In this document: positions 8,069 through 51,409 of the stretch, one piece after another
Numbering within the stretch: the stretch's first letter is position 1
How the letters are laid out: each line of letters begins with the position of its first letter
IMG/VR virus record: IMGVR_UViG_3300045971_000149
Location: 1 to 64,000 of that record
Reading direction: 5' to 3' (one strand)
DNA: 64,000 nucleotides
From: a virus
Program-made: the position numbers and the translations under genes
Notes under the pieces: generated by a model
What the model was told of the DNA's origin: nothing
Seen by the model: the letters and a program-made list of their open reading frames with translations, nothing else
The model's database searches: none

Positions 8069-9345
8069 TGGCAGTATCTCCTAAAACCGGGTTTACAGTT
8101 AAAGATCCAGTTAGTGGTAGAACTCAGGATCTAGGTAATAGGTACGTTTCGAAAGATATGCTTTTAGACATGTATCCGAACATTGCATCGGCACTAGGTG
8201 GAAGAGTCACCCCTGGACTTTGGGTGTGGGGTCCGAATTGGCTCGGCCAGTTAGGGCAAAATAATACTACTTTTGGATATTATTCATCGCCTACACAAGT
8301 TGGTGCACTAACTAATTGGAAACAAGTATCTTGTGGGTACCAGCATACCGCAGCGGTAAAGACAGACGGAACATTGTGGGTTTGGGGATCAAATGCAAAT
8401 GGTGCGTTAGGTTTAGGAACAACGACACTTGCAGTATATTCTAGTCCAGTACAAGTCGGTGCATTAACTACTTGGCGGCAAGTATCTTGCGGCTATCGGT
8501 CTACGTTTGCTGTAAAAACTGATGGAACTGCATGGTCGTGGGGAGATGCTCATTTTGGCCAATCAGGAAGAGGAACTACGGTAAATTCGTCGTCCCCGAT
8601 TCAAATTGGAACATTAACAAATTGGCGTCAAATCGAAACGGGCGGGCTAACTACATACGCAGTTAAAACAACCGGCACACTGTGGGCATGGGGAGCTGGC
8701 TCGTCGGGCCAATTAGGAAACGGAACCCTTCTTCTATATTCGTCCCCTATACAAGTCGGATCTGCAACTAACTGGCGGTCTGTTTCGGGAACTTCACCAT
8801 CAATCGGGTCCGGCTTTTACGGAAATATGGCTGCAATTCAGGACAACGGGACATTGTGGGCATGTGGATACAACGGCCGAGGCGAAGTTGGGAATGGAGT
8901 GTTAGGCGGGACTATATCAACTATGGTACAAGTTGGCTCATCGACAGCATGGAGACAGGTTATGTACACATATTATGGAGCAGTTGATGCAAATGCTTTT
9001 GGAATTCAACAGGATGGATCGCTATGGGGCTGGGGATTTGGCCTACTTAGTAATATACCCGGGTATACTACAGATCAACCTGCCCCTGTTCAAATAGGAA
9101 CCGAAACAAATTGGAGACAGGTCGGATCATCAAAATCGGGATTATTCGCAATTAAAACTGACGGAACTCTTTGGTCATGGGGAAGTCAATTTTGGGGCGC
9201 ACTCGGTGATAGTGTGTACGCCGGCGGCGGCACTAACCAGTCCTCTCCTGCACAAATTGGAACATTAAAAACGTGGAAGCAGCTTGCATGGTCCGGCAGC
9301 AATATAGGACAGCATTTTGCCGCAATAAAAGATGGATACGATTAA
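8068..9345 (+). CDS. RCC1-repeat beta-propeller protein B
   Basis: 425 residues. An N-terminal segment of ~50 residues contains DLGNRYVSKDMLLDMY, similar in pattern to the N-termini of the RCC1 proteins on either side, and is followed by about seven RCC1-type blades (for example KTDGTLWVWGSNANGALG). Longer inserts occur in blades 5 to 7. Starts on the ATG overlapping the previous stop. Probably a paralogue of 6200-7381 and 9355-10545, with the shared N-terminus acting as a common attachment domain (inference). Confidence 0.8.
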   Translation: MAVSPKTGFTVKDPVSGRTQDLGNRYVSKDMLLDMYPNIASALGGRVTPGLWVWGPNWLGQLGQNNTTFGYYSSPTQVGALTNWKQVSCGYQHTAAVKTDGTLWVWGSNANGALGLGTTTLAVYSSPVQVGALTTWRQVSCGYRSTFAVKTDGTAWSWGDAHFGQSGRGTTVNSSSPIQIGTLTNWRQIETGGLTTYAVKTTGTLWAWGAGSSGQLGNGTLLLYSSPIQVGSATNWRSVSGTSPSIGSGFYGNMAAIQDNGTLWACGYNGRGEVGNGVLGGTISTMVQVGSSTAWRQVMYTYYGAVDANAFGIQQDGSLWGWGFGLLSNIPGYTTDQPAPVQIGTETNWRQVGSSKSGLFAIKTDGTLWSWGSQFWGALGDSVYAGGGTNQSSPAQIGTLKTWKQLAWSGSNIGQHFAAIKDGYD

Positions 9346-9354
9346 AGGTTAACA

Positions 9355-10545
9355 ATGTCAACTTCAGGTTTTAAATTTCCCATTCTAACAGTAAACGGAA
9401 CCGCAACTAGCACAATTGTTGATTTCGACGACATGTTTGTTCGTAAGGAATTATTCCTTGATGCAGGGCTGTTCTCATGGGGAGCATCTCCGCAAGGTGA
9501 AAATGGGTTAGGTGCTACTACTTCTGTTTCGTCTCCTGTACAAATTGGCGCGTTAACTAACTGGAAACAAATGGTATGTGCTGCAAACTGTACTGCGGCA
9601 ATTAAGACCGACGGGACATTGTGGTCGTGGGGGTTAAACACATCGGGCCAGTTAGGACAAAATATTGCCGCAACAACAAAGCAATCAAGCCCTAACCAAG
9701 TCGGTTCGTTAACTACATGGAAACAAGTTGCAGCCGGCAATGGCTCGTTTGGCGGAATAAAAACCGACGGAACATTGTGGATGTGGGGGTTAAACACAAC
9801 AGGGGTGTTAGGAAACAGCACCACAAACGCATCTTACTCGAGTCCTATTCAAGTCGGTGCATTAACTACTTGGGCATCAATGTCTATCAGCGGGTTTAAC
9901 GCAGTCCACGCAATAAAAACTGATGGAACTCTTTGGGCTTGGGGAAGAAACAATGAAGGTGCGTTAGGTAACGGGTCAACAGTAAACACTTCGAGCCCTA
10001 TTCAAATAGGAACATTGACTGGCTGGATTCAAGTTAACGGTGGCAATGCAAGTACTAAAGCAATTCGCTCTGATGGAACACTGTGGGCATGGGGGTTTAA
10101 CGGCGGTGGGGATATGGGAATAGGAAATACTATTAACTACAGCTCGCCTGTTCAAGTAGGATCGTTAAATGATTGGAAATTTATTACTCAAGACGAAAAT
10201 AGTACTGTGTTTGCGATAAAAAATAATGGAACACTTTGGGCATGGGGATTTAATAATACAGTCGGCATGCTGGGCCAGAACACTACAACTCCGGCATACT
10301 ATTCAAGCCCGATTCAAGTTGGTGCATTAACTAATTGGAAGCAGGTTTCAGTTGGATTAGCCCATGTGGTAGCAGTTAAAACTGACGGCACTCTTTGGGC
10401 ATGGGGGCTGAATACATCTGGGCAGTTAGGACAAAGTAATACAACATCTGTTTCTAGTCCAATTCAAGTTGGTTCACTAACCAATTGGCGAGTAGTAAAA
10501 GCTGCCTTTAACGGGACCCGAGCAATCGCAGCACCTGATAATTAA
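9355..10545 (+). CDS. RCC1-repeat beta-propeller protein C
   Basis: 396 residues, third RCC1-type propeller in tandem. The N-terminal ~45 residues include DFDDMFVRKELFLD, comparable to the anchor motifs of the other two. Seven or more repeats follow with TDGTLWAWGxNTSGQLGQ and QVGSLTNWK. Preceded by AAAGG seven bases upstream of the ATG. Probably a virion-exposed binding protein; no catalytic motif is visible. Confidence 0.8.
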   Translation: MSTSGFKFPILTVNGTATSTIVDFDDMFVRKELFLDAGLFSWGASPQGENGLGATTSVSSPVQIGALTNWKQMVCAANCTAAIKTDGTLWSWGLNTSGQLGQNIAATTKQSSPNQVGSLTTWKQVAAGNGSFGGIKTDGTLWMWGLNTTGVLGNSTTNASYSSPIQVGALTTWASMSISGFNAVHAIKTDGTLWAWGRNNEGALGNGSTVNTSSPIQIGTLTGWIQVNGGNASTKAIRSDGTLWAWGFNGGGDMGIGNTINYSSPVQVGSLNDWKFITQDENSTVFAIKNNGTLWAWGFNNTVGMLGQNTTTPAYYSSPIQVGALTNWKQVSVGLAHVVAVKTDGTLWAWGLNTSGQLGQSNTTSVSSPIQVGSLTNWRVVKAAFNGTRAIAAPDN

Positions 10546-10551
10546 AAATAT

Positions 10552-10581
10552 TTGACATCACTCCTTCCGGTGCTATATAAT
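10552..10581 (+). promoter_or_regulatory. Near-consensus sigma70 promoter upstream of the glycan-modification cassette
   Basis: TTGACA at 10552-10557 and TATAAT at 10576-10581, spacer 18 nt. It lies directly after the stop of RCC1 protein C and just upstream of the AAGGAG ribosome-binding site at 10588-10593. The predicted 5' end falls at or just before that site, so the leader would be very short. Confidence 0.7.
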
Positions 10582-10599
10582 AGTACAAAGGAGTTTCAA

Positions 10600-11373
10600 T
10601 TGAAAAAATATCATTTTATTTCCGGGTTGCCACGTTCCGGAACAACTTTACTCTCTACTATCCTTAAACAAAATCCAAAATTTGAAGCAAGTGTTTCGGG
10701 GCCATTGGCAAGATTTACTAGAGCAATTATACAAGAATCGTCAAGTCAAGGTGGATATAGATTTGAATGCCCGCCAGAAAAACGCAAGCAACTCATTAAC
10801 GGGTTGTTTGAAAACTATTATGACGACCCCACAAAAGAAGTAGCATTTAACACTAACCGCGGTTGGCCATTATTGCTCCCGACTATTAAGGATTTATATC
10901 CTGAAAGCAAAATGATTCTATGTGTGCGTGATATTGGTTGGATTCTTGATAGCTTTGAAATGCTTCAGCGAAAAAATCCTTATACATTTACGAGTATGTT
11001 CAGTGATGCTGAAAGAATTAACGTATATAGCCGCTGCGAAACATTACTGAATAATGCACGAACCTTGGGGTTTGCATATGCAAGCGTAAAAGAAGCTATT
11101 ACTTCAGAATATAAAAGCTCAATAATGGTTGTTGATTACATTCAACTTGCAAAAGACCCTGCACGGACAATGCGAGCATTATATAGTTTTATCGGAGAAG
11201 AGTATTACCAACACGATTTTGATAATGTAGAAGCAAGCTACGACGAATTTGATGAAGACATTCAACTACCGGGATTACATACAACTCGAAAGAAAGTTCA
11301 GTACATAGAACGTGACACGGTTATTCCTCCCGATATTTGGCAAAGAGTAAACGGTATGGAAGTTTGGAAATAA
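10600..11373 (+). CDS. Sulfotransferase-family protein
   Basis: 257 residues from a TTG start chosen because AAGGAG lies 6 nt upstream and the protein then begins at the conserved strand (KKYHFISGLPRSGTTLLST). That segment is the 5'-phosphosulfate-binding loop of PAPS-dependent sulfotransferases. The order of elements (loop, basic helix, later VVDYIQLAKDP near the 3'-phosphate region) and the length fit the family. Likely transfers sulfate from host PAPS to a glycan or protein on the virion or host surface (substrate unknown). First gene of an overlapping cassette with three glycosyltransferase-like genes and a methyltransferase. Confidence 0.75.
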   Translation: MKKYHFISGLPRSGTTLLSTILKQNPKFEASVSGPLARFTRAIIQESSSQGGYRFECPPEKRKQLINGLFENYYDDPTKEVAFNTNRGWPLLLPTIKDLYPESKMILCVRDIGWILDSFEMLQRKNPYTFTSMFSDAERINVYSRCETLLNNARTLGFAYASVKEAITSEYKSSIMVVDYIQLAKDPARTMRALYSFIGEEYYQHDFDNVEASYDEFDEDIQLPGLHTTRKKVQYIERDTVIPPDIWQRVNGMEVWK

Positions 11374-12096
11374 ATGATTCTTAACATAACACACGAAACA
11401 TTCTGTACACGGGGGATCCGTAATGGAGATCTTGTTGCGGTTTGCAATGTTGTGCAATACTTGAGAAAGATGAAAAATAATCCAGGAATACAATTCTATA
11501 TGGGAGAAGGCACAGTAATTCCCGACGAATACTGTCAACAGTTCTTCCAATTTTTATGTAAGCAAACTGATTGTTTTTCATTAGTGCCGGGTAAACAGGA
11601 ACTTCCGTGGAAGAATGTTAACTTATGGGATTACAGAGATATCTGTGGCGATGTCGTAAAAATATATAACGACAAAGAAATGAAAAAGAAAATAGTAGTG
11701 TTTCCTATTTACGATGCACTGTATCACGTATATAGAAATTGGCCAATGGAACTATTTCATAAAGTATTAGCGCACTGTTCTGCACAATATCCCGACCATG
11801 AAAAAATTGTGTGTGTTAAAGATATACCTGATCCGAGAGCAGGGATTAATTTACATGATTTTAAATTGAGCACAGATTTCATGACTAACATAAAACACAT
11901 TATGGATGCTGAAATATTCATAGGTGGTGATACCGGAGTTAGTCACTTTGCCGCGGCCCTTGACAGAGGCCCGAAGGAACTTGTGTATTATTATTCAAGT
12001 AGGGGAATGCTACATACAACTCCATTCTATGCATTGCAAGGAAAGGGTATATTAAACACCTATTGGCTTGACTGTGAAGGAGTAACATGGGAATAA
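11374..12096 (+). CDS. Glycosyltransferase family 9-like protein
   Basis: 240 residues. The C-terminal motif GGDTGVSHFAAALD is the nucleotide-sugar-binding signature of ADP-heptosyltransferase-type (GT9) enzymes, preceded by a strand/helix pattern typical of a GT-B C-terminal domain. It is shorter than bacterial GT9 enzymes (about 320-350), so the N-terminal domain is reduced. It starts directly after the sulfotransferase stop (TAAATG) and its 3' end overlaps the next gene by 10 nt. Likely adds a sugar to a surface glycan or to a phage structural protein. Confidence 0.65.
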   Translation: MILNITHETFCTRGIRNGDLVAVCNVVQYLRKMKNNPGIQFYMGEGTVIPDEYCQQFFQFLCKQTDCFSLVPGKQELPWKNVNLWDYRDICGDVVKIYNDKEMKKKIVVFPIYDALYHVYRNWPMELFHKVLAHCSAQYPDHEKIVCVKDIPDPRAGINLHDFKLSTDFMTNIKHIMDAEIFIGGDTGVSHFAAALDRGPKELVYYYSSRGMLHTTPFYALQGKGILNTYWLDCEGVTWE

Positions 12097-12770
12097 GCGT
12101 TTCGTGTATAGACACATTAAATTATGATGTAACTATACGAGCATTAAAAACTACGATAGAAACATTACAAGGTAAAGTTACTAAAGTATATTGGTTTAGT
12201 GATATTAAATTTCCGGAGAAAATAGATATCCCAGTTAAATGGATTCCGATAAACAAATTTGTTAGGTATACGGATGAATATAATTATGTCACCCTTAAAC
12301 TAATGCCGTCAGTTATAGAAGAATCACATAACTTAACAATACACGGCGACGGATTTGCAGTTAATTCCGATGCATGGACAGATGTGTTCTTACAATACGA
12401 TTATATAGGAGCAGTCTGGCCTATGTATGCAGATAAGCGAGTAGGCAATGGCGGGTTTACTTTAAGATCGAAAAAATTGTATGATACATTAGCACGGATA
12501 AATGTAAAGTATAGAACTGAAGAGTTTTTAGGTGAAACTGATCTTACTCTATTCAATACTGATAATAAGGGCGATCGGATAGTTCCAGAAGATAACATTA
12601 TTTGTAGATACTATAGAACAAGATTAGAAGACGAGTTCGGAATTGAGTTTGCCCCGGTTCCTATTGCAGACCGATTTAGCATAGAGTTAAACACTGATTC
12701 GTTGTGGCTCGGAAAGAGTCTAGGTTTTCACAACAAGAGAATAGCACACCATTATGGAGTTGAATTATGA
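12087..12770 (+). CDS. DUF5672-like glycosyltransferase
   Basis: 227 residues. Signature elements of the DUF5672 family are visible: DGFAVNSDAWTDVFLQYDYIG, split here by DGFAV and YDYIGAVWP, then VGNGGFTLRSKKL, and PEDNIICRYYR near the C-terminus. DUF5672 proteins are predicted GT-A glycosyltransferases found in polysaccharide clusters and large phages. Overlaps both neighbours (10 nt upstream, ATGA downstream), so is expressed as part of the cassette. The acceptor is unknown. Confidence 0.7.
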   Translation: MGISVSCIDTLNYDVTIRALKTTIETLQGKVTKVYWFSDIKFPEKIDIPVKWIPINKFVRYTDEYNYVTLKLMPSVIEESHNLTIHGDGFAVNSDAWTDVFLQYDYIGAVWPMYADKRVGNGGFTLRSKKLYDTLARINVKYRTEEFLGETDLTLFNTDNKGDRIVPEDNIICRYYRTRLEDEFGIEFAPVPIADRFSIELNTDSLWLGKSLGFHNKRIAHHYGVEL

Positions 12771-13360
12771 AAGTAAATTTAGGTAGCGGATATAAACGCA
12801 TTGAAGGATTTGTTAATGTAGATGACGATCCGTTGGTTAATCCCGAATATGTTGTTAATTTAGAGAAAGGTAAATTACCGTTCGACGATAACACAGTAGA
12901 AGAAGTTGTTGCACATCATATATTAGAACATATAGGTGAAGGATTCATACCGTTGATGCAAGAAATTTATCGAGTTTGTAAGAACGGCGCAATAATAGAT
13001 ATAGTTGCGCCACATCATTTTCATGAAGTATATGTTAGTGATCCCACACATAAACGACCTATCACAGTTGATGGAATGATGCTGCTTGGAAAGAAGTTTA
13101 ATAGAGAGCATATTGAAAAGCATACCTCTAGTTCGGGTCTCGGATTAAAATTTAATATAGATTTTGAAGTTATTTGGTACGATTATGACTTCGATGTATT
13201 TTATGATGCAATGATAACAGATTTTAAAAAGAGAAAAGAAGAAGGTAAAGTTGCTCAAGAAGAAGATTTTATGATTCAACGGTTACTACGTGAAGCGACT
13301 AATGTCGCAATAAACACTAAAATAAAATTAATGGTGAAGAAAGATGGTCCAACCGCTTAA
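12767..13360 (+). CDS. Class I SAM-dependent methyltransferase
   Basis: 197 residues. The N-terminus VNLGSGYKRIEGFVNVD is motif I of a Rossmann-fold methyltransferase of the type found in polysaccharide clusters, followed by LPFDDNTVEEVVAHHILEHI (motif with the conserved HxLEH). Its coupling to glycosyltransferases suggests methylation of a sugar or of a fibre-linked glycan. Overlaps the next gene by 17 nt. Confidence 0.7.
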   Translation: MKVNLGSGYKRIEGFVNVDDDPLVNPEYVVNLEKGKLPFDDNTVEEVVAHHILEHIGEGFIPLMQEIYRVCKNGAIIDIVAPHHFHEVYVSDPTHKRPITVDGMMLLGKKFNREHIEKHTSSSGLGLKFNIDFEVIWYDYDFDVFYDAMITDFKKRKEEGKVAQEEDFMIQRLLREATNVAINTKIKLMVKKDGPTA

Positions 13361-14765
13361 ATATTCAGAAACACGCCAACCGTTAGAACACATTGTTGAT
13401 TTTTTAGAAAAAGCCAACGAAGATGCATTAGCAGCAAAAGTAATAGAAGTGTTTGCTCGTCATTCATTCAATATAGAGCAGTTTAATCTCATAGCTAAAC
13501 TGTTCCTAGATGTACGTGATATTCCCCTTGCAGAGAAGTATGCATTAAAAGTGCTTGAAATGACTGACGATCTAAATCAGAAATTTGCTGCGAGAGCAAA
13601 CTTGGCAAAGATGTATAACAATATCAACATGCCGGAGAAGTCATTATTTTACACAAATATCAATCGTGCAATAATGCCTAAAGATCCAGATACATTATTA
13701 GAATCTGTATTTTCTCTTTACTTGTTAGGTCGTAAACCCGAAGCTGAAATTATTCTTAGAGATATGGAAACATATAAAGACCAGTTAAGTGAGCGACACC
13801 GAGATATTGTTAATTTCAATCTCGGTACATATAACATGGAGAAAGGCAAATTCTTAGAAGGGCTTGGCGGGTTCTTACTTAATGTTAAGAAACTTGAGAT
13901 ATGGTTTTCCCCTAAAGAACTTCCGTATAAGTTCTGGGACGGCGGCGCATATCCAGGTAAGACACTTATTATGTTTATGGAAGGTGGCGGAATCGGAGAC
14001 GAGATGCTTACTGTAAGATTCTACGACAATCTTAAAGCAATGGGATTTGATCCAGTGTACTATACCGGCCGAAAAGATTTGTATGAAATTTTTAATCGAT
14101 GCGGATATAAAACTATAATGACTCTGGATGGCATTCCGGAAGATGCAATGTGGACATATGCGATGCAAACACCGCTATGGTTGCAATGCAAGCCAGAAGA
14201 AGTTATTAGATCAAACTACTTATATCCGTCTAATGAAGCTAGAGACAAATGGGCATTTATCAAAGAAGATAAGAAGCTTCGAATAGGAGTTCGTTGGCAA
14301 GGTAATGCAAAGAATGAGCGAGACTTGCATAGAAAAGTACCAATTGCAGATATGATGAAGACATTGCATGAAGTATATGATGGACAAGATGTCTCATTTT
14401 ACTCTCTACAACTCGGCGACGGCGTAGAAGAAATGAGCAATTATCCAGAACTGATCGATATTAGCGATAGAATTTCTTCATATAACGATACGTTAGCATT
14501 GATGGAAAACTTGGATCTAGTTGTAACATCTTGTACCAGTGTGTTACATGCTGCTGCAATTGTAGGGACTCCGACAATGGGCATGATTCCTATCTCTGCA
14601 TACTTCACTTGGGTAAGTCCCCCGACCCCCGGCCGCCCCGACAACTCTAGTATTTGGTACGAAGATAACTTACGTTTGTTTAGGCAGATAGTACCAAATA
14701 ATTGGGATAAACCGTTTAATGAGCTTAAAACGTTTTTAATTGAGCATTGGCCCAGCGCAAAATAA
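13344..14765 (+). CDS. TPR-like plus GT9/GT41-like glycosyltransferase
   Basis: 473 residues. Residues ~1-190 are helical with TPR-like spacing (AEKYALKVLEMTDDLNQKF, ANLAKMYNNINMPEKSLFY). Residues ~205-470 form a GT-B-like domain with GGGIGDEMLTVRF at its start and TSCTSVLHAAAIVGTPTMG, the donor-binding signature, near the end. This architecture is common in phage and bacterial TPR-glycosyltransferases. Last gene of the cassette, followed by strong inverted repeats. Confidence 0.7.
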   Translation: MVQPLKYSETRQPLEHIVDFLEKANEDALAAKVIEVFARHSFNIEQFNLIAKLFLDVRDIPLAEKYALKVLEMTDDLNQKFAARANLAKMYNNINMPEKSLFYTNINRAIMPKDPDTLLESVFSLYLLGRKPEAEIILRDMETYKDQLSERHRDIVNFNLGTYNMEKGKFLEGLGGFLLNVKKLEIWFSPKELPYKFWDGGAYPGKTLIMFMEGGGIGDEMLTVRFYDNLKAMGFDPVYYTGRKDLYEIFNRCGYKTIMTLDGIPEDAMWTYAMQTPLWLQCKPEEVIRSNYLYPSNEARDKWAFIKEDKKLRIGVRWQGNAKNERDLHRKVPIADMMKTLHEVYDGQDVSFYSLQLGDGVEEMSNYPELIDISDRISSYNDTLALMENLDLVVTSCTSVLHAAAIVGTPTMGMIPISAYFTWVSPPTPGRPDNSSIWYEDNLRLFRQIVPNNWDKPFNELKTFLIEHWPSAK

Positions 14766-15013: not shown

Positions 15014-15040
15014 ACAAACTCCAATTTAGTACGTTGTGGG

Positions 15041-15048
15041 ATATTTAT
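15041..15048 (-). promoter_or_regulatory. T4-late-like octamer for the exported peptide
   Basis: CATAAATA/ATAAATAT on the minus strand, 28 nt upstream of the ATG at 15013. It faces away from, and almost touches, the + strand octamer at 15051-15058. Confidence 0.45.
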
Positions 15049-15050
15049 GA

Positions 15051-15058
15051 GTTAAATA
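15051..15058 (+). promoter_or_regulatory. T4-late-like octamer 5 nt before the YqgE/AlgH start
   Basis: GTTAAATA followed by 5 nt and ATG. In T4 the late start site is ~6 nt after the octamer, so the transcript would begin at the start codon. No Shine-Dalgarno sequence is present. Confidence 0.45.
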
Positions 15059-15063
15059 TCACG

Positions 15064-15624
15064 ATGACAAAAATAGAAAATCTTACAGGTAAAATAATTA
15101 TTGCCCAGCCTGCATTTTATAGTGGCCATTTTAGCAAGAGTATTGTATTAATTGCCCAACACGGAGAAGGCGGATCGTGGGGAGTTGTATTAAATCGACT
15201 TGCGCGGACTGTTACTATGAAAGAAGTAATGAAAGCAGCAGGAGTTGAATACCATAGAGATGAAGCTATCTATATCGGTGGCCCCGTAGAGCCCACACGC
15301 ATACACGTTGTTCATTCGTTAGATTGGTCATCATCCGGAACAATGTGTATTAATGACGAAATTGGAATCACTGGCGATTTAAGTATACTAGCTGCAATAA
15401 GTGCAGGAGAAGGTCCTGACTATTATAGGGCAGGTATTGGTCTTGCAGTATGGAGTGCAGGCCAACTAGATGGGGAAATGAAAGGGCAGTCCCCTTGGAA
15501 ACCAGAACAAAGATGGCTTACAACTGATGCCACTGTAAATCTCTGCTTCAATGAGCTCGGAGAAGAACAGTGGCATAATGCTATCGGACATTGTATCGAA
15601 GAACGAGTATCTGATCTCTTTTAA
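15064..15624 (+). CDS. YqgE/AlgH (UPF0301, DUF179) family protein
   Basis: 186 residues from the ATG giving MTKIENLTGKIIIAQP; a longer TTG frame 30 nt upstream is less likely. Family hallmarks are visible: LTGKIIIAQPAF, SWGVVLNRLA, IYIGGPV, ITGDLSILAAI, and the late WSAGQLDGEM then WL. The length matches bacterial YqgE (~187). The biochemical role of the family is poorly defined; AlgH was named for a link to alginate regulation. Unusual cargo for a T4-like phage. Convergent with the helicase gene, with a 4 nt overlap at the 3' ends. Confidence 0.85.
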   Translation: MTKIENLTGKIIIAQPAFYSGHFSKSIVLIAQHGEGGSWGVVLNRLARTVTMKEVMKAAGVEYHRDEAIYIGGPVEPTRIHVVHSLDWSSSGTMCINDEIGITGDLSILAAISAGEGPDYYRAGIGLAVWSAGQLDGEMKGQSPWKPEQRWLTTDATVNLCFNELGEEQWHNAIGHCIEERVSDLF

Positions 15625-17090
15625 TCTTTTTCGGAATTCATTCCAGCAAGCATTTCTCTAATCTTTGTGCTTCCTGCAATACCTTTAATCTTCCCAATAC
15701 TACTTCCTTCAGTCGGGTCTCGAATTTCCCCAGTATCTTGATCAATAATTGTAGATGTTTTCTTCAGTCCTGCATACAACCCGGGCTTTCCATTTCCGTT
15801 ACCATTACCTTGACCGCCACCATTACTAAAACTAGATTCTTGTTCGTCTTCGTCTAGGTTGCTAATACGCAATGAGTCTAAGTTAAATTCAAGATCGACT
15901 TTTTGCCCAACACCGCTACTAGAACGAGTTTTCATAAACTGAATCTGAAAGCGTCCGCGTTCTTTCATTGCACGACTTGTAAAGATACCAATAACATTGT
16001 CTGCTGTCATGATCTTTGATAATCCGCCTGATATGTGACTGTGATCAAATTCAATCTCTTCAACTGCACTACGATTTAACTGAGACGCGGTGACTGTGAC
16101 GCATTGTGTTTCCATTGCTAAGTTACGAATTTCTTCTGATACATACTTGTCCTTAACGAACAAATCACTTGGGCTAACTTTAACGCTAAGTGGCATCATT
16201 AAATCCAAATAGTCGATTAGCAATACATCGGGTTTCACGCCCTTCTTAACTTGATACTCTTTTAGATACGCACGAATATCGTTACAGTTCTTACCAGATG
16301 GCATATATTTGACTTGCAAGTTACCGCTCTTCTTACCGATCATCTTAACTTTAAGTTCAACATCGTCTAAGCTCTTAAAGATCTCGCGTGTGCCAATCCC
16401 TGTCATCATACTGTCAAGCCGCATTGCAACTAATCCTTCGCTCAATTCGAACGTTAGGTACAATACATTTAATCCTTGCAATGCCCAATTAACCCCCATA
16501 TTCGCTAAGAACAGAGATTTACCACCGCCTGATCCTGCACAAAAGATGTTCAGTTCACCGCGATTAAATCCGCCGTACAGCTTACGATCCATTGACGGCC
16601 ATCCTGTGCTAATTTGACCATTACCGTCTTTTAACTTGCTCAATCGTGCTCTAGGATCTTCAAAGTAATCAGTACCCATGTCTTTGTTCAAGCTAATCTG
16701 AATTGCATCTTTGATTAACTTTTCAACTGGACCGTATTCGCCCTTTTCAAGCAAGTCTGCTGACTGCAAAATTGCTCGCTCTAATCCCTTATGACGAGAA
16801 AAGTTTTCAAACTCGTTCATTAACCAATCATAATTTTCTTTAGGTAATTCAACCGGGTTTAGATCAGTGTTGCAAGATGCATTAACAATTTGTGCCTCGG
16901 GCATGATCTTGTATTCGTTAACATAATCGTTAATGAAAGTTGCTACATCTTGTAACTTTCTATCAAAATTCAACGGCTCAAAAATGTTCTGGCAACGCAC
17001 AAATGTCGCTGCATCGCTCATAAACATTTCTATATATAACTTCTGAATGTCGTGACTATAACTAGGTGCTACTTGTTTATTCTCCGCCAT
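15621..17090 (-). CDS. gp41: Replicative DNA helicase, T4 gp41-like
   Basis: 489 residues, DnaB/RecA-fold helicase. Walker A FCAGSGGGKSLFLAN at ~200, H1a-like LYLTFELSEG, Walker B DVLLIDYLDLMM at ~295, and a Gln/Arg region around TVTASQLNR. The N-terminal ~150 residues form the helical domain used for hexamerisation and primase contact. The C-terminal Gly/Asn-rich linker (GGGQGNGNGNG) is atypical. Start overlaps the end of the primase gene by 14 nt, so helicase and primase of the primosome are made together. Confidence 0.9.
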   Translation of the reverse strand: MAENKQVAPSYSHDIQKLYIEMFMSDAATFVRCQNIFEPLNFDRKLQDVATFINDYVNEYKIMPEAQIVNASCNTDLNPVELPKENYDWLMNEFENFSRHKGLERAILQSADLLEKGEYGPVEKLIKDAIQISLNKDMGTDYFEDPRARLSKLKDGNGQISTGWPSMDRKLYGGFNRGELNIFCAGSGGGKSLFLANMGVNWALQGLNVLYLTFELSEGLVAMRLDSMMTGIGTREIFKSLDDVELKVKMIGKKSGNLQVKYMPSGKNCNDIRAYLKEYQVKKGVKPDVLLIDYLDLMMPLSVKVSPSDLFVKDKYVSEEIRNLAMETQCVTVTASQLNRSAVEEIEFDHSHISGGLSKIMTADNVIGIFTSRAMKERGRFQIQFMKTRSSSGVGQKVDLEFNLDSLRISNLDEDEQESSFSNGGGQGNGNGNGKPGLYAGLKKTSTIIDQDTGEIRDPTEGSSIGKIKGIAGSTKIREMLAGMNSEKD

Positions 17091-18069
17091 GCTCTATCCT
17101 TTTCTTTAACATTGTTATTTTAATCTCACCGTGCACTCTATATTTGAGGATAGTGAGAAGTGTGTAAATTCTACCAAATTTCTTAACAGCATCTGCAACG
17201 TCTTTAACATCCGGCCCCCAATCAGGCAAACTAACTGACCAATTGTGTGCTACTGCTGCCTTGAGCATTTGTATGCCTGCCTTATCATTATCGGGGACTA
17301 CTATTACTTCTCTCGCTAACTGATTAATTCTAGATATTTGTGTTTCATTAGGATCGTTATGGCCTATTGCTACTCCGTCTACTGCAATTGCATCAAACTG
17401 ACCTTCTACTACGATGACAAATTTTCTATCATCTTTTTGATTGTCAATATTAAACACATATCCAGGTTGTCCGTGTGCAAGATACTTAGGTTTGCCATCT
17501 CTAATTTTACGCCCGGTCCATCCTGTAATGCGACCTTCGTGATAATACGGAATAATAACTCGGTCTCTATAGCCGCTAGCTGAACACCAGTGCCAGTTAC
17601 ACCAATCTAAGCTCATGCCTCGATCAAGTATGTACCCTACTACTTCTAAAAAGTCGCTGTCTTCGCATCCTTTGTTAATCCATTGTTGTATGGGTAAACA
17701 ATCTTCTGGTAATTCTGTTGTCTCTAATTCAAAATTTGGAAGTTTTACTGCTTTCGGTTGATCGTCTTTCTGTTTGATAGCATCAAATGCCAATTGCTGG
17801 ATCTCGCTATCAGATATACTTAGCCAGCTAAACAGGCTTCGCGTATTTTTCGATAGTAGCTTCCCTGGTTGCCAACCTGCTTTGAAACTACAATTAAAAC
17901 AGTGATAAGTAAATCCGTCGCCGCTGAACATTATGCCGCCGCGTTTACGTGTATCGACCTTTTCGCCATTATGATGACAGCAGGGCGCATTAAAGCTTTC
18001 CCATCCCGACGGAGTTATCTTTCTTTTAGGTGGCAAGGCTAACTGCACTCTTGCCTGTATAGTATTCAT
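17077..18069 (-). CDS. gp61: DNA primase, T4 gp61-like (zinc ribbon plus TOPRIM)
   Basis: 330 residues. The N-terminal zinc-binding site is seen as CCHH and YHCFNCSF at ~30-60. The TOPRIM core includes FVIVVEGQFDAIAV (catalytic Glu) at ~213-226 and VIVVPDNDKAG (DxD) at ~255-265. Length and domain order match gp61-type primases. It synthesises RNA primers for lagging-strand replication with the adjacent gp41-like helicase. Confidence 0.88.
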   Translation of the reverse strand: MNTIQARVQLALPPKRKITPSGWESFNAPCCHHNGEKVDTRKRGGIMFSGDGFTYHCFNCSFKAGWQPGKLLSKNTRSLFSWLSISDSEIQQLAFDAIKQKDDQPKAVKLPNFELETTELPEDCLPIQQWINKGCEDSDFLEVVGYILDRGMSLDWCNWHWCSASGYRDRVIIPYYHEGRITGWTGRKIRDGKPKYLAHGQPGYVFNIDNQKDDRKFVIVVEGQFDAIAVDGVAIGHNDPNETQISRINQLAREVIVVPDNDKAGIQMLKAAVAHNWSVSLPDWGPDVKDVADAVKKFGRIYTLLTILKYRVHGEIKITMLKKRIEHGGE

Positions 18070-18997: not shown

Positions 18998-19384
18998 ATG
19001 AAACCAATTAAAAGCAACGATTTTCAACAGAATTTTCCGTTTATAACCTGCATTCGCTGCTGTGACGACGAGTACGTCGGCATTATCATCAACCTCGATT
19101 TGCAGGTTACTAGCATATATGATTTTAGCATACTGAAAACTGACGGAGACAAACAGAAATTTTTAGAACTAGGTGAGATTTGGTGGTGGGAATCTAATAG
19201 GAAGATACCTATTAATATCTTTTTAAAGGCAGATATGATTGCATTCCGCCCTATGATCAAGACATTTAGTTCTAAAGATATTTCCGTAGTATTTGGGCCT
19301 ACGGTAAATTTAAGTGATATTGCAGAAAAGCGGGTAAAGCGTAAATCAATACAGCTTGTTAAGAACCCGAAGAAGCTTCGCTAA
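18998..19384 (+). CDS. Hypothetical protein, isolated on the + strand
   Basis: 128 residues, not recognised. It begins with MKPIKSNDFQQNFPFITCI and has a basic tail (KRVKRKSIQLVKNPKKLR). A WWWE motif occurs at ~62-65. It is divergent from the 299-residue gene and its 3' end overlaps the DnaE-like gene by 26 nt on the other strand. The compact fold-like pattern and codon use support a real gene. Confidence 0.6.
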   Translation: MKPIKSNDFQQNFPFITCIRCCDDEYVGIIINLDLQVTSIYDFSILKTDGDKQKFLELGEIWWWESNRKIPINIFLKADMIAFRPMIKTFSSKDISVVFGPTVNLSDIAEKRVKRKSIQLVKNPKKLR

Positions 19385-19952
19385 TCTGTTCGCAAATGAG
19401 ATTTAATTGCATCACAATAAGATGTGCGTAACTAACAGCATGACTCTTTTTAAAGTAATACGCTTCGTCAGTTTTAACCCAAATATCATTCTTAATCGCC
19501 TCGAAGCCTTCTTCCTTGCATATTGGCAACAGATGCTTTTTACCAGGTCTAATTAATGCCAATACTATTGCTAATTCTAGTATACTGGTCGGCTTTAATT
19601 GTTCTAACAGCGAATGATAACCATTAATATGTACCAACTGATCGCATATATCTTTCTCGTAAATCAACTCCCATAATGGTTCTACGGCAAGTAGCTTACT
19701 AATATGTTCTTCGTTCTTAACGTCTTTATATGCAGATACATTTAAGAAATCTATCTTAAAATAACCGCGCTCTTCCGCAGACTTATACTCGATACTAGAA
19801 AGTCCGGTTAATGGATTGAACGGAACAGAGTGACAATATACTCCAGAATTATGTTTCTTTGCAATACCGTGGTCAAGTCGCATTGCAGAAATATGCTTAA
19901 TTTTCGATAGCACTTCGTCTCTATCAGCGAAATCAATATCTATATCCGGCAT
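19359..19952 (-). CDS. Miniature DNA polymerase III alpha (DnaE)-like protein
   Basis: 197 residues against ~1,160 for bacterial DnaE. It opens with MPDIDIDFADRDEVL, which matches the PDxDxDF catalytic motif of family C polymerases. Then come YKSAEERGYFKIDFLNVSA (DnaE: GLxKxDFLGL), LKPTSILELAIVLALIRPGK (DnaE: LxPxxFEDLxAxxALxRPGP) and YYFKKSHAVSYAHL (DnaE: FNKSHAxAY). So palm and thumb/fingers landmarks are present in the right order with the intervening sequence removed; the PHP, OB and tau-binding domains are absent. GGAGG lies upstream of the ATG. Polymerase activity is doubtful; a regulatory or clamp-related role is possible. Confidence 0.7.
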   Translation of the reverse strand: MPDIDIDFADRDEVLSKIKHISAMRLDHGIAKKHNSGVYCHSVPFNPLTGLSSIEYKSAEERGYFKIDFLNVSAYKDVKNEEHISKLLAVEPLWELIYEKDICDQLVHINGYHSLLEQLKPTSILELAIVLALIRPGKKHLLPICKEEGFEAIKNDIWVKTDEAYYFKKSHAVSYAHLIVMQLNLICEQISEASSGS

Positions 19953-20274
19953 TTACGCCTCCTCCACATAGTGCCAACACATTTAAATATTGATCCCATG
20001 CTTTTTGCACTGCGGGATATCTGCGCCTAATCTCAACGTTCTCTAAAGATTCTTCGTTAAACACTTGCATCATGTCTTTTACGCGAGGTTCGGGCACATG
20101 AAATGCAATAGCTTTCACATCTGTAACTGTATACTCTGGGTATAAGGTTGACATAGAAGTAGTATATGTATATGGATCGATCTGTTGTCGAACAGCAAAT
20201 CGTATTTCACTATCGGTCACTTTTGCATCAAATTGATCGCAGAATTTATTGTATTTTTGAGAATAATCTTTCAT
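19933..20274 (-). CDS. Hypothetical protein upstream of mini-DnaE
   Basis: 113 residues, family not recognised (FCDQFDAKVTDSEIRFAVRQ; EPRVKDMMQVFNEESLENVE). Overlaps both neighbours (20 nt with mini-DnaE, ATG overlapping the stop of the zinc-finger gene), so is part of the replication-region operon. Confidence 0.6.
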   Translation of the reverse strand: MKDYSQKYNKFCDQFDAKVTDSEIRFAVRQQIDPYTYTTSMSTLYPEYTVTDVKAIAFHVPEPRVKDMMQVFNEESLENVEIRRRYPAVQKAWDQYLNVLALCGGGVNAGYRY

Positions 20275-22615: not shown

Positions 22616-23119
22616 TTACCAGCATTTAGTATAGTGAACGATTTCACTTTGGCGGCTAACTTCTTTAACAAAGTAAGCGCAGACGGGTTTATCTCCTGCA
22701 TGAAGTGGAGTGCAAAGTAGTTGTCCAGGTTTCATCTTTGGAAAATACCATTTAACGTCTTGATAAACATTAACGATATCGATATCAAAAAATTCAGGAC
22801 GAAAACTACTTAGTGGGTTAAACGTAAAGGTTCTAAAACCTCGATCATTTAAACTTGTTAATGGAAGAACTTCCATATCTGGACCTTCCGGATCTCCTAC
22901 AATACAACACCAATCCAAGGGCATTGGTACTTCGTAAGGTCCGATTTTAAGGACGGCGGCAGGTCCAGTGAATGATTCCAAAAAGATTAATGGCAGATAA
23001 AAGTAATCGGGATTTAAATTATCCGAATTATCCATTACTGCATACCTTAAGTCTTCATCGACTTCTTCAGGTAATTCATTTAGATAAAATGTTTTATTTT
23101 CTAGTGTTAATATTTGCAT
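22616..23119 (-). CDS. Hypothetical protein next to uvsW
   Basis: 167 residues, Pro-rich (MPLDWCCIVGDPEGPDMEVL; YFPKMKPGQLLCTPLHAG). Several phage genomes of this type carry a similar protein, but I know no function. Its start overlaps the uvsW stop, so it is cotranscribed. Confidence 0.55.
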   Translation of the reverse strand: MQILTLENKTFYLNELPEEVDEDLRYAVMDNSDNLNPDYFYLPLIFLESFTGPAAVLKIGPYEVPMPLDWCCIVGDPEGPDMEVLPLTSLNDRGFRTFTFNPLSSFRPEFFDIDIVNVYQDVKWYFPKMKPGQLLCTPLHAGDKPVCAYFVKEVSRQSEIVHYTKCW

Positions 23120-24576
23120 TATTGTTTTACTTTTTCTATAGTGAATGGATATTGAGCATCTTTATAGAATTTTTTACGTTCAGTTAAATGTCTCTTTGCG
23201 TATTTTGTATTTGCGGTAAAATCCCAGATGTTTACAAAATCTTTGTCTTTGGCTTTTCGGATGCCTCGTCCAATAGATTGAATAACTCTAACAAATGACT
23301 TTCCAGGTTCAAGTAATATAAGATTAAAAATACGGGGAATGTTAATACCAACAGCAGCAACACCATACGTCGCAATAGTAATAGTATTATCTGACGTAGC
23401 AATTTCGTCGTATTCATCCTTTCGATCAGTTGTCTTCATTGCACCAGATATGAACGCAACTTCGTCGCCGAAGTATTCTTTTAGCATCTTCCCGGTTTCG
23501 ATTCGGTCAACTAACACAAGTGCATTGCCGGTTTCTGCAATCTGCTTGATACGTTTTGCTAAGAACTCTACTCGATCTTTATCAGTAACAAGGTATTTGA
23601 GTTCTTCTGGATAACTTTTGAACTCTTTCCACTCCTGTGTTTGCACAATGTTAACATGACAAGTACTTAATACACCTTTCTGTTGTAGCTCGTATGCACT
23701 TACGCGACCTACTACATTACCGAGGCTGCATCGTATGCTTTCAAATTCAAGTGAATCCTTGGGAACAGTTCCGGTAAGTCCCCAACGGATCGGAGCATTA
23801 CGCAAGTTTTGTGTAAGTAGATTCTTCAATACTTCTGCTTTAGCTTGATGCACTTCGTCAATAATAACAGTGCTAACACCTTCAAGGAACTCTGCAAGTG
23901 TGATTAAATCAGCTTCACCATTCTTAGTTTTCTTATCAAGTACGTTCAGACTTTGCCAAGTGCAGATTGTGTGCGTCTTATCAAGATCCTTTCGATCACC
24001 GTAATAAACGCCAACATCTAACCCAACGTTAATAAAATCTTCTTCAGTTTGTTCAACTAGACTCTTGTTAGGAACTACAGTAATAGTACGTCCGTACTTC
24101 TCGCAAATCTTGCTAAGTGTTGCAGTCATGATAGTCTTGCCTGCACCTGTTGCAATTTCTTGCAATGCTTGTGGATTCTCTAAGAATACATTAACTGTGT
24201 CAACTTGGTCGTCCCGCAATCTAATAGGTTCGCCTTCAAATCGATGTCCCTTTGGCCAGCATTGATTCCCCCAAAAATCTTCTTTAATTTTTGAGAACTC
24301 TAACGGTACAGATGTGCGTTCGTCGTCGACTTCGATGTAATACCCTTCACTTTCAATAATTGGCAATACCTGATCTAGTAAACTAACATATGTGGTGCCG
24401 CCTAATCCAAAAAAGCCAACGCACCCATCCCACCTACCTAACCGATATGAGGGTTGATACTTTGCACTTTGTTGAAAATACTTAAACTTCTTAACTAACT
24501 TTTTACGAGTGTCAAGATCCAATCCATCGATCTTGACATTGACCTCGTCTTTAATTACAATTCTAGCTGTCGCCAT
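23119..24576 (-). CDS. uvsW: UvsW-like SF2 helicase
   Basis: 485 residues. Motif I EIATGAGKTIMTA at ~135, motif II VIIDEVHQAK at ~245, motif III GLTGTVP, and motif VI VIQSIGRGIRKAKD at ~435. Length and N-terminal DNA-binding domain match T4 UvsW (~500), which unwinds R-loops and branched recombination intermediates and helps switch from origin- to recombination-dependent replication. Overlaps the HARP-like gene upstream by 22 nt. Confidence 0.88.
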   Translation of the reverse strand: MATARIVIKDEVNVKIDGLDLDTRKKLVKKFKYFQQSAKYQPSYRLGRWDGCVGFFGLGGTTYVSLLDQVLPIIESEGYYIEVDDERTSVPLEFSKIKEDFWGNQCWPKGHRFEGEPIRLRDDQVDTVNVFLENPQALQEIATGAGKTIMTATLSKICEKYGRTITVVPNKSLVEQTEEDFINVGLDVGVYYGDRKDLDKTHTICTWQSLNVLDKKTKNGEADLITLAEFLEGVSTVIIDEVHQAKAEVLKNLLTQNLRNAPIRWGLTGTVPKDSLEFESIRCSLGNVVGRVSAYELQQKGVLSTCHVNIVQTQEWKEFKSYPEELKYLVTDKDRVEFLAKRIKQIAETGNALVLVDRIETGKMLKEYFGDEVAFISGAMKTTDRKDEYDEIATSDNTITIATYGVAAVGINIPRIFNLILLEPGKSFVRVIQSIGRGIRKAKDKDFVNIWDFTANTKYAKRHLTERKKFYKDAQYPFTIEKVKQ

Positions 24577-25783: not shown

Positions 25784-26239
25784 TTAGATATGTACATCTT
25801 CCATGCCGGCAGTTCGCAATTTAATGATATTACTCATCTGCCATTGTTTAATATCCAACGCCTTGATAATTCCAAGCCATTGGTTCCTTAGTAAAGCAAA
25901 TTCGTTGATGATCTTTTCTAAGTCAACAACATCAGCTTCACCGTCAACATACTTTTCACAATCTCTCGAACTGAGAGCACGTTGATAGTTTTCTAGATAT
26001 TTCTTGAATGCTTTTGAGCGTGTTCTTCTAAGCTCAATATTAAGATATTCTAACACAGCTTCAATTTCTTGAAGCTGGTTAAAACGCTGTTCAACAATGC
26101 CGGGTAAAAGAGAAGAAGCTTTTTCTAAGTTTCCAAATACTTTGACTTCTTTTCTAGCATCATCTAATTGGACGTAGAAGTACTCAATACAGTCAGGCAA
26201 ATGACTAATGTCTCTACTGACTTTTGAGTACCAGCTCAT
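25784..26239 (-). CDS. uvsY: UvsY-like recombination mediator
   Basis: 151 residues, all helical, with ALSSRDCEKYVDGEADVVDL and NEFALLRNQWLGIIKALDIK characteristic of UvsY proteins in T4-like phages (T4 UvsY is 137). UvsY loads the UvsX recombinase onto gp32-coated single-stranded DNA. The presence of uvsX and gp32 a few genes away supports the call. GAGGA precedes the ATG. Confidence 0.8.
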   Translation of the reverse strand: MSWYSKVSRDISHLPDCIEYFYVQLDDARKEVKVFGNLEKASSLLPGIVEQRFNQLQEIEAVLEYLNIELRRTRSKAFKKYLENYQRALSSRDCEKYVDGEADVVDLEKIINEFALLRNQWLGIIKALDIKQWQMSNIIKLRTAGMEDVHI

Positions 26240-26476
26240 TTAATCCTCGTCTTCGTTGTAATCGTCTTCTTCGTCTTCGAAATCTTCATCGGCAACAGCT
26301 TTGATTGCATCATCAAGATGCGGATCATACCCTGTAAACGACTGTAGGTCGTCGATACTAATATCATTGCCTAGCAAAAAATCAACGTATTGATTTGCTG
26401 CCATTTCGCGATTCTTTTCGGGAATATATTCACGGAACATATCCCATACTGTCATAATTAAACTCTCGTCCATCAT
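26240..26476 (-). CDS. Small acidic protein between uvsX and uvsY
   Basis: 78 residues ending in a strongly acidic tail (DEDFEDEEDDYNEDED). A homologous small ORF is common at this position in T4-like phages infecting marine bacteria; function unknown. GAGGAG ribosome-binding site, overlapping the uvsX stop. Confidence 0.6.
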   Translation of the reverse strand: MMDESLIMTVWDMFREYIPEKNREMAANQYVDFLLGNDISIDDLQSFTGYDPHLDDAIKAVADEDFEDEEDDYNEDED

Positions 26477-27528
26477 GGCTCCTCAGGTTCTTCTACGGAA
26501 GTTGTCGATTGAACCGACTTTTCATCCCATTGTTTCATAATTAACTGTAACTTTTCTTCAGTCCAATTCTTACGAAACTCTGCAATAATCTCTCCAGTGT
26601 CCTTATCAGTATAAGCAAGTTTGTTGCCTACCTTAGATAATACACTCATCTTTTCAAACATGTCAACTAACCCAGATGTAGGCGCCATTCCTGTTGAATA
26701 TGGGATTTGAATCTGTACACTTTCAAATGGCTTTGCGTAACGTGTTTTCATAATCTTGCAAGCTGCACGAATACCTAAAACATCAGTCACTTTGTTTCCA
26801 TCTTCATCCAACTTTAGTTTTAACTTTTTCATTGCAACTACAATTGAACTTGCATAAACAAATCCTTGGCCACCGCTAATCTTATCATCTGGATCAAACA
26901 TATCCTGACTTGCATATGTGTGATTAGTACATACCAATCCTACATTATAACTTCCAAACATATTTACACAGTTGCGAACTAGCGAAGTTAGTGCTTTGGG
27001 CTTACGGCCCATATCACCCTTCATTTCGCCTGCTTCGAATTGATTTACATCAGTCGGAGTAAGCAACATCCCCAATGAGTCAACTACAAATAATACCTTT
27101 GGACGTTCGTCCTGCGGCATAGTTTTGTATTCTTTCATGAATTCTGATATTGTTTTTGCAACATCGTCAATCATTGCCATGTTCAACTTCAACAGTTTTT
27201 CAGCTGAAGTATCAACGCCAAGATCAATTAGCCACTTTTCGTCAAGTGCATTTTCGCTATCAACTAAGACAACAAAAATTCCCTGTTCTTGTGCATGTCT
27301 GATAATGTTACCTGAACAAATATAAGACTTGCCCGCACCAGACTCTCCAGCAAACACTGTTACCTTACCAAGAGGAACTCCCCTAAAGAAGTCCCCCGAG
27401 ATAAGATAATTTAGTGCGTAGTTGCCAGTTGAGATCCAGTCAGTAGGATCGTTAAAGCCGATTCCTAATCCATCAATTGATTTAGTAATACTTTTTCTAA
27501 ACTTACTTATATCAAATGCTTTACCCAT
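26473..27528 (-). CDS. uvsX: UvsX recombinase (RecA/Rad51-like)
   Basis: 351 residues. Walker A FAGESGAGKSYICS at ~60, catalytic region LVDSENALDEKWLIDLGVD, Walker B KVLFVVDSLGMLL at ~150, and L2-region DKISGGQGFVYASS. Matches T4 UvsX in length (391) and order. Catalyses strand invasion in recombination-dependent replication. AAAAGGAATATC upstream of ATG gives a normal ribosome-binding site. Confidence 0.92.
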   Translation of the reverse strand: MGKAFDISKFRKSITKSIDGLGIGFNDPTDWISTGNYALNYLISGDFFRGVPLGKVTVFAGESGAGKSYICSGNIIRHAQEQGIFVVLVDSENALDEKWLIDLGVDTSAEKLLKLNMAMIDDVAKTISEFMKEYKTMPQDERPKVLFVVDSLGMLLTPTDVNQFEAGEMKGDMGRKPKALTSLVRNCVNMFGSYNVGLVCTNHTYASQDMFDPDDKISGGQGFVYASSIVVAMKKLKLKLDEDGNKVTDVLGIRAACKIMKTRYAKPFESVQIQIPYSTGMAPTSGLVDMFEKMSVLSKVGNKLAYTDKDTGEIIAEFRKNWTEEKLQLIMKQWDEKSVQSTTSVEEPEEP

Positions 27529-28207
27529 GATATTCCTTTTTTAATTTACAATTTTCCCCGTGCCATCTGGTATAGTTCGACTTTGATATATCAACTATTC
27601 CGCAATATTCACAGGATTTTCTATTTTCTAAATTGTTCACCCAATGATTAATCCCTTTGAACTTAGCTGCAATCTCTGGTCTGCGCATTGGATTATTATC
27701 GCCCTCTTGATAAGGTCGTTTAATGCCAGTTAACGCCACGCTAATTTTTTCTGCGTTCTTAGGATTTTTGTTAGGATGATTGTCTCCGCGAATAGAATTT
27801 CTTATCTGTCCTTTTTGAGGATGGTCTTTACCCTGTAAATTATGTGTCCAGTGCTTGTCTCCTCGATGTTTATCAGCCATTCTTTTTGCAATAATTGGAT
27901 TTTTCATCGGATTTAACTCGCCCGGGCTAGGTCGCAAATCCCCATTGTGCATGTTATAACTCATTGGGTTATTGCGAACATCCATAGCAGTTAAGTAGTT
28001 TGTTTCGAGCTCAACAATGTAATCAGGTGTCCCTATGACTAACACTTCTCGGACCCAATCTGATTTATTAGATAATATCATTGGCTTAACTACAGAACTA
28101 GAACAAATATATCCATCATCAGGATAGCAACCTTTTGCAGTCCTGGACCCAACATACCATTTTTGTGTGCTATGTTGAGTCCATTTATACAGATATGCTA
28201 AAGTCAC
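27521..28207 (-). CDS. GIY-YIG / NUMOD3-type homing endonuclease
   Basis: 228 residues from a GTG overlapping the gp32 stop (GTGA). The N-terminus LYKWTQHSTQKWYVGSRTAK is a GIY-YIG-like catalytic motif. Residues ~95-190 contain three or four NUMOD3-type repeats (GELNPMKNP, GDNHPNKNP, GDNNPMRRP) that bind the DNA minor groove. The C-terminus has CEYCG with a later C. Free-standing homing endonucleases of this kind often insert between conserved T4 genes; here it splits the gp32-uvsX pair. Confidence 0.75.
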   Translation of the reverse strand: MTLAYLYKWTQHSTQKWYVGSRTAKGCYPDDGYICSSSVVKPMILSNKSDWVREVLVIGTPDYIVELETNYLTAMDVRNNPMSYNMHNGDLRPSPGELNPMKNPIIAKRMADKHRGDKHWTHNLQGKDHPQKGQIRNSIRGDNHPNKNPKNAEKISVALTGIKRPYQEGDNNPMRRPEIAAKFKGINHWVNNLENRKSCEYCGIVDISKSNYTRWHGENCKLKKEYHG

Positions 28208-29208
28208 CCTTCTTTCTTTTGACGGTTTTTAATCATTTGTAGAATATCTTTTGCGCGATCGCTTGCTTCTGATCCGGCTGCTTTTGGAGCATCTTCAGCT
28301 ACTGGTGCTGCAAAAGATTTTTCAGCTTCTGCTACATCATCTTCGTCAATTGCATGCGCTGCTGGCTTTGCTGCTGGCTTTGCTGCTGACGGAGTTGCTG
28401 AACCTGTCGACTGTCCACTACCACCCATACCAGCTGGCTTAAAGTATGCGCCCCAACGATCCATGTCAAATGCTTCACCGTCCACCGACGCTTCAAACAT
28501 TTCTTTCATGATCTTGAGTTCAACTTCGCCTGGCTTCTTAGGTAGGAAGCTCTTCAAATCAAACAAACCATATTGTTCGATAGCTGCTTTTTCAGCATCG
28601 CCTAATGCACGTTCACGACGCGCCCAGCTTGATGTAGAATAGTCAGCATATCCGCCCTTGCTGGTCTTAGTAATCTTGAAGTCAAGCCCACGAACATAAT
28701 CCGTTGGTAGTTCTTCAATCTCGCTATCCATCAATGCGTTCTTAACCAGATTAAAAATCTGACTGCCGATAATGAATCGACGAATTGGATTTTCTGGTGT
28801 CTTATCCTCAGGCATTTTACTGTCTGTTACAAACCCTTGGAACAAGTAACTGCGCTTCTTCCAGTACTTACGTCCCAACTCTTCGAGTGACTTATCCTTA
28901 AACCAAGGACGCACCTCGGTAAGAATTGGACAAGTCTCGCCCCACATTTCCATGCAAGGTACTTGAACTGTTACGGGTTTGGAATTTGCTTCACCCTTAA
29001 CTCCTGCGAATGGCAATTTAATCATTGCGCGTTCAATCCAGAAGAAGGTGTTTGCTGGGTCTGCATCAGGCAGGAAACGAATTGTAGTCGTTGTACCTTC
29101 TGCTGCGTTCCAGTGTGCGAAAATCGCGTTGTCTCCACCAGCTTGACCGCCAGTGTTTTGTTGACTTGATGCCTGTAGTTTTGCTCTAATTTCTGCCAAA
29201 GATGCCAT
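28204..29208 (-). CDS. gp32: Single-stranded DNA-binding protein, gp32-like
   Basis: 334 residues. The OB-fold core is seen with TTIRFLPDADPANTFFWIER, the zinc-binding type segment around CMEMWGETCPI, and YWKKRSYLFQGFV. The C-terminal ~90 residues are Ala/Pro-rich then acidic (AIDEDDVAEAEKSFAAP), the usual protein-interaction tail. Coats single-stranded DNA and recruits UvsY, gp59-type and helicase functions. AAGGAG is 7 nt upstream; a strong terminator separates it from the gene before. Confidence 0.9.
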   Translation of the reverse strand: MASLAEIRAKLQASSQQNTGGQAGGDNAIFAHWNAAEGTTTTIRFLPDADPANTFFWIERAMIKLPFAGVKGEANSKPVTVQVPCMEMWGETCPILTEVRPWFKDKSLEELGRKYWKKRSYLFQGFVTDSKMPEDKTPENPIRRFIIGSQIFNLVKNALMDSEIEELPTDYVRGLDFKITKTSKGGYADYSTSSWARRERALGDAEKAAIEQYGLFDLKSFLPKKPGEVELKIMKEMFEASVDGEAFDMDRWGAYFKPAGMGGSGQSTGSATPSAAKPAAKPAAHAIDEDDVAEAEKSFAAPVAEDAPKAAGSEASDRAKDILQMIKNRQKKEG

Positions 29209-51373: not shown

Positions 51374-51409
51374 TTCGTTTCCTTTTACTGCTTCGTTTAA
51401 CATGTATGT

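Follow-up and report, generated by a model that had tools for sequence, protein, structure and literature searches.

A predicted C-terminal half of a split, minimal DNA polymerase III alpha in the replication gene cluster of a T4-like phage

Why does a T4-like phage carry a small family C polymerase core among its replication genes? The question is posed by an intact gene, ATG-initiated and uninterrupted by stops, in the 64,000-nucleotide stretch analysed here (the window), which covers positions 1 to 64,000 of IMG/VR record IMGVR_UViG_3300045971_000149. A sequence-only reading had recognized landmarks of DnaE, the bacterial Pol III alpha, in its 197-residue product and had taken the protein for a stripped family C fragment, perhaps a decoy for the host clamp or tau, a polymerase inhibitor or a minimal nucleotidyltransferase. 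Judged by its sequence relationships, the protein is no odd fragment: it belongs to a minimal Pol III alpha that is specific to phages and split in two, and it corresponds to the C-terminal half (C-half). The PHROG 11778 ('DNA polymerase') profile matches it over its full length (residues 3-189 to profile positions 8-194 of 197) with E=3.8e-63, and the Pfam DNA_pol3_finger profile matches at E=0.0015, below Pfam's own cutoff. The gene, its motifs and its neighbours are listed in Table 1.

Table 1. Positions in the window of the C-half gene, its conserved motifs and the surrounding replication genes.
Feature	Positions	Strand	Remarks
C-terminal half of split minimal Pol III alpha, PHROG 11778	19359..19952	-	197 aa
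PDIDIDF, P2-F8	19929..19949	-	catalytic D3 and D5 (=D401, D403); start Met aligns with DnaE M399
GYFKIDFLN, G63-N71	19740..19766	-	K66 (=K553) and third catalytic Asp D68 (=D555)
LKPTSILELAIVLALIRPGKK, L119-K139, fingers motif	19536..19598	-	R135, P136, K138 invariant
FKKSHAVSYAH, F167-H177, fingers helix	19422..19454	-	H171=steric gate H760, K169=K758, S170=S759
DnaB-like replicative helicase	15621..17090	-	neighbour; synteny
DNA primase	17077..18069	-	neighbour; conserved order
Convergent ORF, phrog_11637	18998..19384	+	26-bp overlap with 3' end of C-half
113-aa ORF upstream of C-half	19933..20274	-	20-bp overlap with start of C-half
UvsW-type helicase, C-half cluster	23119..24576	-	
UvsY-like recombination mediator, C-half cluster	25784..26239	-	
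UvsX recombinase, C-half cluster	26473..27528	-	
gp32-type single-strand DNA-binding protein, C-half cluster	28204..29208	-	

The resemblance to DnaE is clear at the level of profiles. Against a profile of 31 DnaEs, residues M1-E13 align with E. coli DnaE 399-411 (E=3.8e-6) and residues 51-178 with 538-767 (E=1.7e-9). The two blocks are collinear, the next-best alternative alignment having E=0.13, which bears out the order of landmarks first noticed. Compared by hhalign with E. coli DnaE alone, the C-half gives a weak match (E=0.014), and a single-sequence search of the PDB with it gives none. When a profile of its family is compared with PDB sequences, nine of the ten matches are Pol III alpha. 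Foldseek, run with the AlphaFold model against the PDB, returns Pol III alpha for the first eight matches and a protein titled only 'DNA polymerase' for the ninth, with E-values of 0.01-1 that are weak singly and consistent together. Pol III alpha leads the profile and structural matches alike, and a chance match of motifs is ruled out by the PHROG, PDB-profile, Foldseek and DnaE-profile results.

All three catalytic Asp residues of family C polymerases are kept on this one chain: D3, D5 and D68, equivalent to E. coli D401, D403 and D555. The two Asp residues counted earlier are both present; the count itself was too low, as the third, whose presence had been left to check, lies in FKIDFLN. 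Also kept are K66 (K553), R135-P136, K169 (K758), H171 (H760, proposed as the steric gate in E. coli alpha; PMC8485763) and Y175 (Y764). Residues D3, D5, D7, K66, D68, R135, P136, K138, K168, H171 and Y175 are invariant over 88 C-half sequences, partly by construction in the environmental sample because some of it was retrieved with patterns containing PDIDIDF and YYFKK; the same invariance recurs in divergent phages found by tblastn. The position equivalent to S759 is Ser in the present protein and Pro or Ala in RaK2-, 121Q- and PA5oct-like phages. Two lysines of the family, in RPxK and FKK, are absent from E. coli DnaE at the same places and might, speculatively, replace lost triphosphate contacts.

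What separates these residues has been drastically shortened, in agreement with the earlier description of compressed motifs with the intervening parts removed. In E. coli DnaE, D403 lies 152 residues from D555, and D555 lies 205 residues from H760; in the C-half these distances shrink to 63 (D5-D68) and 103 (D68-H171). The 400 residues downstream of H760 are reduced to 26 after H171, and the protein ends at the equivalent of about DnaE residue 785. By alignment, the thumb (E. coli DnaE 433-510) is missing along with everything C-terminal of that end point. About 100 residues of the fingers are also gone, a conserved stretch (E. coli about 645-750) that includes LRRAMGKK. Of the usual family C parts, the PHP, clamp-binding and tau-binding regions and full fingers are absent by alignment, and the GS motif lies not on the same chain but, in relatives, on a separate protein.

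This partner (N-half; phrog_11127), about 170 aa long, carries the GS motif as GRGSS, and profile comparison aligns its residues 75-168 with DnaE 283-392 (E=3.4e-11). The GS motif of family C polymerases binds the incoming nucleotide, and neither half by itself holds a complete active site. N-halves terminate in EFLR or EFLK, at the point where DnaE runs through ERFLN-PERVSM-PDFDVDF, and most C-halves begin with M-PDIDIDF. As the N-half aligns through residue 392 and the C-half from M399, the two abut at DnaE 393|399. GRGSS is invariant or nearly so among N-halves, with one Cys in Atu_ph07.

All nine complete relatives checked (Phosso, Atu_ph07, RaK2, PA5oct, Vibrio 2.275.O, XaC1, 121Q, the 345-kb contig G001 and Slicko01) have the two halves as well as a family B polymerase; completeness is as the records state, except that G001 was judged on size and content and Vibrio 2.275.O is titled a partial genome. 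The C-half is predicted to be half of a two-gene enzyme rather than a stand-alone protein, and the earlier placing of a reduced family C core among the replication genes of a T4-like phage holds good. In RaK2 the N-half and C-half are ORF162 and ORF124, and in 121Q they are gp56 and gp16. Searched with the RaK2 N-half or with the RaK2 C-half, INPHARED yields 90 records each time, and the two genus tallies are almost the same. No fused form was seen among the fetched loci, bar one full-length bacterial-type DnaE record. A DnaQ-like exonuclease scored above cutoff in six of eight complete relatives, was weak in Phosso and not found in G001; it was rejected as a constant partner because it is not universal.

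Some gene models in these relatives deserve separate mention. Both halves in the complete, 141-kb Alishewanella phage Slicko01 (L182:7571-8182 and L182:19021-19533, both on the minus strand) are annotated 'hypothetical protein'. The annotated start at 8073 of the Atu_ph07 C-half (L083:7992-8564) removes the DIDID catalytic motif, and the longer ORF fits the family. The family B polymerase apparently occupies two ORFs in PA5oct (825+379 aa), Atu_ph07 (418+578) and Slicko01 (578+322).

The whole 157,925-bp record carries terminase, tail sheath, primase and helicase genes, and no N-half, family B polymerase or clamp loader was found in it, although the complete relatives have the latter two as well as the N-half. 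The simultaneous lack of these three indicates that the record is incomplete; it is very probably a fragment.

The C-half family extends over about 90 phage records. A tblastn search found relatives in 105 INPHARED records, of which 13 are Streptomyces phages, whose listed matches are marginal (E about 0.7) and fall in genes annotated as DnaE-like Pol III alpha. Nearly all the others are jumbo phages or parts thereof, including RaK2-like, 121Q-like and PA5oct-like phages, Atu_ph07, Phosso, XaC1 and Vibrio 2.275.O. At least 494 further IMG/VR stretches carry relatives. The present lineage is no more than 71% identical to any of the IMG/VR relatives kept and no more than 51% identical to any cultured phage, and megablast with 25 kb of the window found no close phage. 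A scan of bacterial genomes for the minimal form gave, among the matches listed, only weak ones of 24-31% identity; 31 of the 37 fall within long frames that bear DnaE motifs, GRGS and PDxDxD among them, and the motif filter found no frame of this kind for the remaining six.

The neighbourhood of the C-half is conserved as well. It comprises gp32, UvsX, UvsY, UvsW, hypothetical genes, the C-half, a convergent ORF, a gene for a structural protein, primase and DnaB. From the hypothetical genes to DnaB, the order in the window matches that in RaK2, 121Q, XaC1, PA5oct and Vibrio 2.275.O, and broadly that in Phosso and Atu_ph07; a convergent ORF occupies the same position in relatives. The 113-aa ORF just upstream was considered as a missing third subunit and set aside, since ORFs at the same position elsewhere include no convincing relative. 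In those jumbo relatives where the distance was measured, the N-half is no farther than about 0.7-3.3 kb from the gene for the gp44 clamp loader, and in several phages a GroES-like gene intervenes. Slicko01 is an exception, its clamp loader being near the C-half.

Other parts of the window hold features of their own. One repeat occurs at least 22 times between 50422 and 63630. On the minus strand it reads TTGAC(A/G)-about 17-TATAATACATACAT; the copies form an array of near-consensus sigma-70 promoters preceding small genes, probably early promoters. Two similar AAA ATPase genes about 9.5 kb apart (50486-51403 and 59926-60801; 77% DNA identity over 61 bp) suggest a duplication. Three RCC1-repeat proteins (6200-7381, 8068-9345 and 9355-10545; Pfam RCC1, E down to 1e-57) lie close together beside a 2061-aa repetitive protein (18-6203) and are probably parts of the virion surface or fibres. 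A sulfotransferase (10552-11373; PF13469) is followed by genes resembling sugar or methyl transferases (11374-14765) and an AlgH-like protein (15034-15624; PF02622); the replication genes lie on the other strand from all of these.

The predicted structures bear on how the halves could work. AlphaFold models the fingers of the C-half alone with pLDDT above 90 and its part of the palm with about 58-70. Such low palm confidence is expected if the palm needs the N-half, although it could reflect a modest alignment instead. The N-half model has a mean pLDDT of 87.6, and its top nine PDB matches are all Pol III alpha or PolC. Taken together, the models fit two half-palms that would complete each other.

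The homology, collinearity, fission point, residue conservation, co-occurrence and neighbourhoods suggest that the C-half and N-half probably form a thumb-less heterodimeric polymerase of the Pol III alpha type, for limited synthesis beside the main replicase. The C-half would supply the three metal-binding Asp residues and shortened fingers, and the separately encoded N-half the N-terminal part of the palm with the nucleotide-binding GS motif. The chains would associate through the palm into one composite site of nucleotidyl transfer. With its thumb, PHP, clamp-binding and tau-binding regions lost, the enzyme is expected to be slow and non-processive and to be recruited by partners in the phage replisome. 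It would make short stretches of DNA in gap filling, primer hand-off or repair, leaving bulk replication to the family B polymerase. Strict conservation of catalytic residues across phages at about 40% identity argues for activity, although activity of the pair is not guaranteed, given that the thumb and a conserved stretch of the fingers are missing.

The same missing parts, the complete family B polymerase in every complete relative and the position of the N-half next to the clamp loader would also suit a pair that assembles without useful catalysis, its fold kept as a structural or regulatory replisome subunit that might, for example, link the clamp loader to the primase-helicase. This reading is unlikely, as structure alone would not demand that the three catalytic Asp, the lysine by D555, the steric-gate His and the GS motif stay invariant across divergent phages. 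Conservation of this kind also weighs against the idea that the protein lures away or inhibits the host Pol III holoenzyme as a mimic of clamp, tau or alpha, to which phage origin and homology to host alpha might point. Alpha binds the clamp and tau through parts near its C-terminus, and the C-half ends far before them; it is located in a replication cluster with primase and helicase, and none of the complete genomes checked has it without an N-half. As these binding regions are lacking, a decoy role is disfavoured, and it is improbable overall.

All three metal-binding Asp lie on the C-half, as a nucleotidyltransferase working on its own would require. In every complete genome checked, however, it is the partner chain that carries the GS motif, which Pol-beta-type folds need, and palm confidence is low when the C-half is modelled alone, making this quite improbable; a minimal nucleotidyltransferase is the closest of the earlier ideas when applied to the pair, and does not suit the C-half alone. 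Joining of the halves by a split intein is scarcely credible: DnaE is a known split-intein host, but cyanobacterial DnaE is split elsewhere, near the KSH motif, and the phage halves, ending in EFLR and beginning with Met-PDIDIDF, have no intein-sized extension, nor was an intein found in either half at the loci examined.

The heterodimeric polymerase proposed here has both precedents and differences. From computational analysis, Iyer et al. 2021 (PMC7824862) briefly described how group 2.2 jumbo phages, besides a family B polymerase, encode a minimal Pol III alpha in two pieces whose genes lie far apart; the two pieces correspond to PHROG 11778 and PHROG 11127. The independent test made here agrees with that two-gene split; the protein family and T4-like replication genes are likewise common to both, and the present protein is a new, divergent member, in a new lineage whose fragment lacks the N-half. 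Beyond the text of that paper, though its Figure 3b may show some of them, are the fission at M399, the map of deletions, retention of the steric gate, the link of the N-half to the clamp loader and the occurrence in a 141-kb, non-jumbo phage. No experiments on the pair were found in the literature searched.

Bacterial DnaE and PolC share with the phage pair the Asp triad, K553, the RP motif and K758/H760/Y764, with the GS motif on the partner chain. They differ from it in having PHP, thumb, clamp-binding, OB and tau-binding regions and the additional fingers residues, and in being unsplit where the phage protein divides into two chains before PDxDxD. Cyanobacterial split DnaE is likewise encoded by two separated genes, from which the phage pair differs in split point, minimal size and absence of an intein. 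Full-length DnaE-like polymerases (phrog_405), as in Streptomyces phages, also bring family C into phages, although the C-half matches them only at the marginal level given above.

More tentatively, a whole phage clade, extending below jumbo size to the 141 kb of Slicko01, may run two replicative-type polymerases, the second of them a family C heterodimer without a thumb. Its active site would be made complete by two chains, of which one is encoded next to the clamp loader and the other next to the primase-helicase, and family B and family C enzymes would share the work in a mixed replisome. An active pair would amount to a very small core of Pol III type. With the catalytic site divided over two genes, it would offer a natural way to learn which parts of DnaE catalysis truly needs, and it would be a case of family B and family C polymerases combined in one phage replisome. 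Since the pair is conserved, the question can be put directly to experiment in cultured phages, RaK2, 121Q and PA5oct among them.
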